Shown here in pieces: positions 1 to 39,101 of a stretch of DNA of 39,146 nt. The translations under genes were made by a program, and so were the position numbers. The notes beneath the pieces are model-generated. The model searched no databases. It was not told the origin of the DNA and saw nothing but the letters and a program-made list of their open reading frames with translations. The DNA lies in the NCBI GenBank assembly GCA_013153685.1, contig JAADDX010000088.1, positions 1 to 39,146 of the forward strand, given 5' to 3'. Each line of letters opens with the position of its first letter. Positions within the stretch are counted from its first letter, which is position 1. The DNA comes from Campylobacterota bacterium. GTDB lineage: Bacteria; Campylobacterota; Campylobacteria; Campylobacterales; JAADDX01.

Positions 1-118
1 GAAAAAATATCTGGTGTAAAATTACACTCAACCCGAAGGGTGGCTTTGCCATTTGTAATTTTAAGATATTTGAAGCGTTAAAAAAGTAAACTTATCTTGA
101 ATGAGAGGAATATTAGCT
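1..118 (+). ncRNA. Putative structured RNA element, copy A (5' side cut by window edge)
   Basis: Nested stems AAATATC(5-11)/GATATTT(65-71), AAAATTACA(18-26)/TGTAATTTT(54-62), ACCC(31-34)/GGGT(38-41); shares loop sequence GCTTtGCCATTTG and downstream GTTAAAAAAGTAAACTTaTCTtGAATGA with copy B at 38857-38960. Confidence 0.55.
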
Positions 119-139
119 TATAATAAATAATAAAAAAGT

Positions 140-17738: not shown

Positions 17739-18839
17739 TTAAGAGTAGTGAATATCCGCATCTGTTGTATCAACTACTACGTCATCTTCACATGCCACAT
17801 CGCTGCTATCATCCAATACGTAATGATTAATGCTTGCTGGCAATTCAAATACAAATTGTGCCGTGCTTGATGAAGAGCTACTGCTTGATGAACTATCACT
17901 TGATGAACTATCACTTGATGAACTATCACTTGATGTATTGTCTGTTGATACTGTATCACTATCATCTAATTTCAAGTCATGATCCATATCTTGATCCATA
18001 TCTTGATCCATATCTTGATCCATATCCATATCTTGATCCATATTTTGATCCATATCCGGTGCAACTACTTTGTCTTTAATCTCACGTGCATGCTCAAGCA
18101 CAGCATCCACATCATCCGCACCATGAACATTTTTAACTAATTCTTGCATATCTTTAAGAGCATCAGCATCCACTTTTACACTTGGGATTTCTTTTGCGAT
18201 CTCTTTTGAAACTTGCACTTTTGCTCCAAAAGTAGTGGCAGCTTCAACAGCACTTTTTGCATAATCTTCACTATATCCCGCTTTTAGATATTGCTCTATC
18301 GCTTCTTGAGGATGTGCTGCGATATCATTTGCTACATTTACCACATCTTTGATTACTTCACCGATTGTTTTTTGACCACTTGTTATTTGTTCTACCCAAT
18401 AATGAACTCCATCTGGATCATCTTGTGCAGTTTTATTAAACAATGTTTGATACACGCTCTCAACAATCGCTTGCACCGCTTGAGTATATGCATCAGTCGC
18501 ATTATCTGTATCAGTGTCTGTGTTTGTATCTGTATCAGTGTTTACATCAGTGTCTGTGTTTGTATCAGTATCTGTGTTTGTATCTGTATTTACTTGCGAA
18601 TCAGCATCTGCACTTGTGTTTGTATCCACATCAATATCAGCATACGCTGGATATAAATCTTTCAAATCAGGGTTTGTCTTTACTGCATCTACAGCCGCTA
18701 CAAACATTGATTGAGCTAATTGCTCATCAGTGTAATTATTTTCTTGAGCTGTTTGTGCCCAATAATCAATCTCTGCCTCACTTGGTGCTCTTTGAAACAT
18801 CGCTAAATATAGCTCCGTAATATAATCTTGTGAAATCAT
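17739..18839 (-). CDS. DUF4214-domain protein with low-complexity Asp/Thr/Ser/Met repeats
   Basis: ITELYLAMFQRAPSEAEIDYWAQ and VESVYQTLFNKTAQDDPDGVHYWVEQI DUF4214-like repeats; start moved to 18839 (MISQDY) with SD GGAGAG. Confidence 0.75.
   Translation of the reverse strand: MISQDYITELYLAMFQRAPSEAEIDYWAQTAQENNYTDEQLAQSMFVAAVDAVKTNPDLKDLYPAYADIDVDTNTSADADSQVNTDTNTDTDTNTDTDVNTDTDTNTDTDTDNATDAYTQAVQAIVESVYQTLFNKTAQDDPDGVHYWVEQITSGQKTIGEVIKDVVNVANDIAAHPQEAIEQYLKAGYSEDYAKSAVEAATTFGAKVQVSKEIAKEIPSVKVDADALKDMQELVKNVHGADDVDAVLEHAREIKDKVVAPDMDQNMDQDMDMDQDMDQDMDQDMDHDLKLDDSDTVSTDNTSSDSSSSDSSSSDSSSSSSSSSSTAQFVFELPASINHYVLDDSSDVACEDDVVVDTTDADIHYS
17884..17928 (-). repeat. 15-bp tandem repeat x3 (Ser/Asp coding)
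   Basis: CTTGATGAACTATCA repeated three times. Confidence 0.95.
17981..18056 (-). repeat. 12-bp tandem repeat (Met-Asp-Gln-Asp coding) with one 18-bp variant
   Basis: GATCCATATCTT units in tandem. Confidence 0.9.
18509..18595 (-). repeat. Degenerate 6/12-bp tandem repeat (Asp-Thr/Asn-Thr coding)
   Basis: GTATCAGTGTCTGTGTTTGTATCTGTATCAGTG...; protein NTDTDTNTDTDVNTDTDTNTDTDT. Confidence 0.85.
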
Positions 18840-18949
18840 GTTCTCTCCTTTTGTTTTTTCTTTCGTTGATTTCGTGGTGGAATTATAAGAAGTGAATATT
18901 AATATTTTGTTAATGATGAGATTTTTGGAAAAAATTTTAGTTTTTGTGG

Positions 18950-18955
18950 TATAAT
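18950..18955 (+). promoter_or_regulatory. Putative -10 element of the rpsB-tsf operon
   Basis: TATAAT about 105 nt upstream of rpsB. Confidence 0.5.
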
Positions 18956-18973
18956 TCATCTCCAAAAACTCAT

Positions 18974-19015
18974 CTACCAATCCTTTGAATAGGTTGCCGC
19001 AAGGTTAATGGGTAG
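18974..19015 (+). promoter_or_regulatory. Candidate rpsB mRNA leader structure
   Basis: CTACC(18974-18978)/GGTAG(19011-19015) enclosing CAAtCCT/AGGTTG and CC-GCAA-GG. Confidence 0.5.
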
Positions 19016-38820: not shown

Positions 38821-38970
38821 AAGGAAATTATTTGAATGAGAGACTTTTTTCTTTTAGGTAAAAACGACTGCTAAAAAATTGCTTTTACCCGTTAGGGTGC
38901 TTGCCATTTGCAATTTTTAAGGAGTTTTTACCGGTAAAAAAGGAAACTTGTCTCGAATGAAAATAATGTT
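38821..38970 (+). ncRNA. Putative structured RNA element, copy B
   Basis: ATTATTT-GAATGA-GAGAC(38827-38844)/GTCTC-GAATGA-AAATAAT(38950-38967); GGTAAAAAC(38857-38865)/GTTTTTACC(38924-38932); AAAAATTGC(38874-38882)/GCAATTTTT(38910-38918); ACCC/GGGT hairpin (38887-38898). Confidence 0.65.
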
Positions 38971-38991
38971 TTGTCTTTTTCAAATAGTCAT

Positions 38992-39101
38992 GTGAGTATG
39001 GGCTATCGTATCGGTAATCCACCATCTATCCCGATAGCTGGTGAAACTATCACGCAAAAAAAAGCCCCATACCCAAAAAGGATATGAGGCTTTCTACTCA
39101 C
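38992..39101 (+). ncRNA. Second putative structured RNA/leader region
   Basis: GTGAGTA(38992-38998)/TACTCAC(39095-39101) closing GCTATCG/CGATAGC and AAAGCCcCATAcCC-AAAAA-GGaTATGaGGCTTT. Confidence 0.5.

Follow-up and report, generated by a model that had tools for sequence, protein, structure and literature searches.

A probable MITE-like element family with a conserved, covarying core in Campylobacterota

Two copies of a branched palindrome on one contig

The window analyzed here is the whole of contig C74 (39,146 nucleotides) of a Campylobacterota MAG (1.30 Mb, 92 contigs). Structured noncoding elements, copies A and B, lie at its two edges, and both were scored with covariance models, i.e., a first model built from four copies of the source genome only and a core model built from 18 sequences. 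Their features, all on the forward strand, are as follows.

1 to 120: copy A, 5'-truncated at the contig start (first model, 102.9 bits), with the core (1 to 87), the right arm, TTGAATGA (97 to 104), and the right terminal repeat GGAATATTAGCTTA (107 to 120)
5 to 12 and 64 to 71: copy A helix AAATATCT/AGATATTT, from sequence
18 to 26 and 54 to 62: copy A helix AAAATTACA/TGTAATTTT, from sequence
31 to 50: copy A apex, from sequence and fold, with mini-hairpins H4 (ACCC-GAA-GGGT, 31 to 41) and H5 (GGC-TTT-GCC, 42 to 50)
38832 to 38960: copy B as a whole, from TTGAATGA to GAATGA, with degenerate outermost arms (first model, 124.7 bits, a partly circular score as copy B is among the sequences used to build that model)
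38849 to 38944: conserved core of copy B, H1 to H5 (core model, 68.9 bits, E = 2.4e-12, copy B being 1 of the 18 training sequences)
38857 to 38865: copy B H2, 5' strand GGTAAAAAC, pairing with 38924 to 38932; from sequence and fold
38874 to 38882: copy B H3, 5' strand AAAAATTGC, pairing with 38910 to 38918; from sequence, fold, and family alignment
38887 to 38898: copy B mini-hairpin H4 (ACCC-GTTA-GGGT), from sequence; its C/G pairs are conserved family-wide
38899 to 38909: GCTTGCCATTT, the H5 site and an unpaired TTT in copy B, placed by the alignment of relatives
38910 to 38918: copy B H3, 3' strand GCAATTTTT, same basis as its partner
38924 to 38932: copy B H2, 3' strand GTTTTTACC, same basis as its partner

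The nested helices that the initial annotation had described in copy B were all recovered at their positions, and the minimum free energy of this copy (-40.9 kcal/mol) was far below that of shuffled sequences (-26.3 +/- 3.4 kcal/mol; z = -4.35; 0 of 200 shuffles). Alignment of copy A with copy B likewise bore out the proposed relationship, namely, a shared architecture with different helix sequences and near-identical loop and flank segments. Copy A by itself folded no better than its shuffles (z = -0.66), because the contig begins within the element and the left arm is absent. In relatives, the H5 site takes the form GCAGCGAAGCTG, GGCTTTGCC, or a short variant. Two further repeats were observed in the window: an inverted repeat (AGCCCCATACC...GGATATGAGGCTT) in the intergenic DNA past copy B (38985 to 39100), possibly a leader or terminator, and 12-, 15-, and 18-bp tandem repeats of low complexity (17870 to 18640) inside an open reading frame on the reverse strand (17739 to 18980).

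The two copies originally reported are real, but they understate the number present, since both belong to a multicopy family. Near-identical relatives of copy A sit at contig ends (C11, C60, C63, C79, and, in part, C89), and the end motif TAAGCTAATATT, present at eight contig ends genome-wide, adds C46 and C85. Five of these (C11, C46, C63, C74, and C89) carry right halves and three (C60, C79, and C85) carry left halves, so that the genome holds at least five such copies in addition to copy B, which has diverged from the A-type copies and has no clear ends. The position of copy A and its near-identical relatives at contig breaks indicates a dispersed repeat, which the assembly was unable to resolve. 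The A-type right end (window positions 97 to 125; also C63 and C46) contains TTGAAT-N16-TATAAT, a promoter-like match facing outward, and on C63 a gene start follows it. At position 11125 of contig C79 in G000 (L237), a short palindrome consists of both A-type ends with the core absent, as if deleted between TTGAATGA direct repeats or as a core-less form.

The conserved core and its distribution

The core, about 100 nucleotides long, has been conserved in 15 genera, among which it covaries strongly. From the outside inward, lineage-specific arms are followed by H1, H2, an internal loop, and H3, the last of which closes a three-way junction bearing H4 (consensus ACCC-GNA or GNNA-GGGY) and H5 (e.g., GCAGCGAAGCTG and GGCTTTGCC). 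In an alignment that was not fitted to the model, 16 of 26 pairs varied on both sides (10.4 in shuffles and at most 11 in slid controls), with 51 compensatory cells (18.4 and at most 21, respectively). When the alignment was fitted to the model (81 distinct sequences), two-sided change was seen at 22 of 26 pairs, and compensatory cells numbered 382, compared with 116 in shuffles and at most 110 in slid controls. Four A-T pairs in the A/T tract of H3 hardly vary (79/79, 80/80, 80/80, and 76/79), while the adjoining pairs covary. The unpaired features (i.e., the two mini-hairpins, a bulge, TTTTTAG, and asymmetric loops) are kept across genera and across the classes of ends described below. The core thus has the conserved, covarying fold expected of a structured noncoding RNA, although the covariation may also have arisen at the DNA level.

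The search for homologs by covariance model that the initial annotation had suggested was productive. The first model retrieved homologs in 11 of 60 genomes, the source genome included, and reached other families (best E outside the source genome, 1.3e-13). The core model detected homologs in 51 of 299 genomes, covering 15 of 81 genera in the order, and a single genome often had many; these copy numbers are lower bounds, as up to 13 candidates were scored per genome and several genomes reached 13. Of 397 genomes drawn from the whole phylum, 18 carried the element, all within the same order. The E-values of these models are rough, and many of the searched genomes are drafts. Carriers include a Nautiliaceae MAG (G228) and Campylobacterota isolate L_MaxBin.107 (G037), and carriage within genera is patchy. 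Copies are dispersed, mostly in intergenic DNA, are amplified within genomes, and have no fixed orientation relative to neighboring genes. The initial annotation had recognized no RNA family, and no Rfam 15 family matched at the gathering cutoff or, for 15 loci, at E <= 1. Distant blastn searches of plasmid and phage records with the copy B region and one relative's element gave no matches, nor did an exact-pattern scan of viral contigs.

Ends, target-site duplications, and mobility

Intact copies are mostly noncoding imperfect palindromes of 150 to 220 bp with sharp boundaries in alignments of copies and flanks, and they have terminal inverted repeats (CTGACC/GGTCAG, TACCAATCC/GGATTGGTA, and CAGGG/CCCTG) and target-site duplications. 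Several marks of a MITE were observed, i.e., short length (154 to 220 bp in most intact copies), no coding capacity, terminal inverted repeats, target-site duplications in excess of cross-copy controls, and many dispersed copies. End sequences of the family include CTGACCTTACGC, CAGGGCTGTTTCA, TACCAATCC, GGYACTGACT, and TAAGCTAATATT, and four classes were paired with duplication lengths: CTGACC with 7 bp, CAGGGCTG with 10 bp, TACCAATCC with 3 bp, and GGYACTGACT with 8 bp. The evidence for duplication comes from the genomes of relatives, as the source genome's own copies break contigs.

In G039 (CTGACC...GGTCAG), 13 of 26 copies are flanked by perfect duplications 7 bp or longer (cross-copy control, 2/650), about half of the copies being without one, and the terminal repeat has 138 matches (control, 0). 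Ten-base-pair duplications were found at four of six copies in G246 (CAGGGCTGTTTCA...TGAAACAACCCTG; control, 0/30), with two more read by eye. The 3-bp class in G004 (TACCAATCC...GGATTGGTA) shows TNA at 12 of 13 copies (control, 43/156), TNA being a frequent triplet. For the GGYACTGACT class (GGYACTGACTAAAT), which occurs in several genomes, 8-bp duplications were detected at about 6 independent loci of 27 (control, 11/702). Comparison between end classes (G246 versus G100) gave identities of 0.5 to 0.95 inside the element and 0 to 0.35 at the outermost ends, and G039 versus G004 showed the same pattern of similar interiors and dissimilar ends. Several copies of the element in G039 (L163, L166, L169, and L191) have another repeat (GGGCACCTCTA/TAGAGGTGCCC) nested in them, and L188, from the same genome, contains a neighboring inverted-repeat element (about 1344 to 1494) whose ends are related (CTGATGTTACGC...GCGTAACGTCAG) but whose interior differs.

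Partial searches of G039, G004, and G246 (many of the genomes being drafts) found no autonomous partner with matching ends. The terminal-repeat matches in these three genomes pair at MITE lengths, the single matches examined have no transposase alongside, and the single CAGGG-type ends in G246 have only ordinary genes as neighbors.

The family has terminal inverted repeats, duplications, amplification within genomes, a conserved covarying core, and ends that vary by lineage. We consider it very likely (probability of about 0.82) that copies A and B are noncoding, nonautonomous MITE-like transposable elements of Campylobacterota. The fold proposed at the outset is thus real and conserved. The initial preference for a functional RNA over a simple repeat is, however, not supported: the element is a repeat that transposition has dispersed, with inverted repeats at its ends and duplicated target sites beside it. 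Transposases would act in trans on the inverted ends, cutting and inserting the element and leaving duplications, and different enzymes would recognize the ends in different lineages. The length of a target-site duplication generally depends on the transposase, so that duplications of 3, 7, 8, and 10 bp suggest the involvement of several transposases. Lineages would have exchanged the outer ends and retained the core, which would persist because its fold is of use to the element or can be tolerated by the host, acting perhaps as a DNA hairpin or cruciform or, after read-through, as an RNA hairpin.

Role of the core and relation to known elements

What maintains the core can be read in several ways. 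It may be transcribed as a structured RNA serving as a regulator, an RNase III substrate, or an mRNA stabilizer, with mobility spreading an RNA gene. The strong covariation, the conserved unpaired positions, and the greater variation of unpaired sites relative to paired sites are consistent with this reading, as is the excess of G.U over A.C at paired sites among the G039 copies taken alone (35 versus 15 cells). Across three genomes, however, no strand preference was detected (38 G.U versus 33 A.C variants at paired sites; P = 0.64); the orientation of insertions relative to genes is variable, and an Rfam match is absent. Moreover, template switching on DNA perfects imperfect palindromes and can create compensatory changes (PMC7202029), which would account for covariation in a palindrome. 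We regard an RNA function as rather unlikely. The covariation could instead be a mere by-product of such quasipalindrome correction, with a functionless core surviving by descent; template switching is known to improve imperfect palindromes (PMC7202029), strand asymmetry is lacking in the three genomes, and compensatory changes occur even between copies of one genome. The conservation of unpaired features across genera and end classes is left unexplained by template switching, and we hold this reading, too, to be improbable. As template switching can correct palindromes and strand preference is absent, covariation by itself is not proof of RNA function.

Alternatively, the A tract of H3, a G/C stem, and the T tract might form a bidirectional terminator or insulator that stops transcription entering from both sides, a reading suggested by the near invariance of the H3 A-T pairs next to covarying neighbors. 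A simple terminator scan, however, gave no hit in copy B and one in each of two relatives, which is near chance; the stem is short and branched, and copies are not enriched between convergent genes. We see such a termination role as a minor prospect, and it seems equally questionable that the element is thereby silenced and its insertions made harmless.

Mobilization as a REP-like element by a REP-associated tyrosine transposase (RAYT; Y1_Tnp) is very improbable. All eight carriers from f4 and f15 in the first set have single-copy RAYT-like genes of about 255 amino acids. These genes have no flanking element, with only marginal matches (E = 0.07 and 0.76) around 13 Y1_Tnp loci; many carriers (f18, f22, G000, G001, and others) have no Y1_Tnp gene, and noncarriers have one as often as carriers (15/34 versus 17/37). 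RAYT/IS200 chemistry is not known to make target duplications, which the present family has. As a general explanation, a RAYT-driven REP was rejected for want of flanking and of co-occurrence with Y1_Tnp. The RAYT-like genes of about 255 amino acids (L275 to L277, L280 to L284, L286, and L287) are single copy and frequent in f15 (Nautiliaceae), and the two that were tested fall under the NCBIfam REP_Tyr_transpos cutoff. An integron attC site and a retron noncoding RNA, both considered from the hairpin shape, are made less likely by the target duplications and terminal repeats.

Within the preferred reading as MITE-like elements, the core might be an independent module, either a structured RNA or a DNA hairpin, that repeatedly took the ends of unrelated insertion sequences; we offer this as a tentative, somewhat doubtful possibility. 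If true, the core would hijack several transposase families and spread through the order by virtue of its own conserved function. One fold under four end classes suggests that the interior of a MITE can be selected separately from its transposase, and covariation in a dispersed palindrome, taken alone, calls for the caution noted above. MITE-like palindromes are already known from other bacteria. In the open literature, neither an account of a family like this from Campylobacterota nor a paper on Campylobacter MITEs came to light, although an earlier description may exist elsewhere, and a MITE review (PMC10969869) is silent on both Campylobacter and Helicobacter.

The nearest kinds of element are ERIC, YPAL, NEMIS, RUP, RPE, and QMITE (PMC2229807, PMC10969869), and the Campylobacterota family works alike. 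ERIC/IRU (RU-1) and YPAL/RU-2 of Enterobacteria are intergenic, MITE-like imperfect palindromes of 100 to 170 bp that form an RNA hairpin if transcribed (PMC2229807). The present family shares this intergenic palindromic form but has a branched apex with two mini-hairpins and target duplications of 3 to 10 bp that vary with end class; comparison through Rfam showed no sequence relation to them. REP/BIME elements with RAYT are likewise intergenic hairpins of high copy number and lineage-specific sequence, whereas the present family has target duplications and neither an associated nor a flanking RAYT. QMITE of Coxiella and RUP, BOX, and SPRITE of pneumococcus have terminal repeats, a core, and a stable hairpin, with 7- to 9-bp direct repeats in QMITE2 and a terminator-like SPRITE (PMC10969869); as described, they are confined to a species or genus, whereas the Campylobacterota core spans 15 genera of an order. 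Correia/NEMIS of Neisseria are inverted-repeat elements of about 107 or 155 bp whose transcripts fold, with processing by RNase III proposed (PMC2229807), and they combine common ends with a variable interior, while the Campylobacterota family has one conserved interior and several kinds of ends. The unusual part is this single branched core, found order-wide under four end classes.
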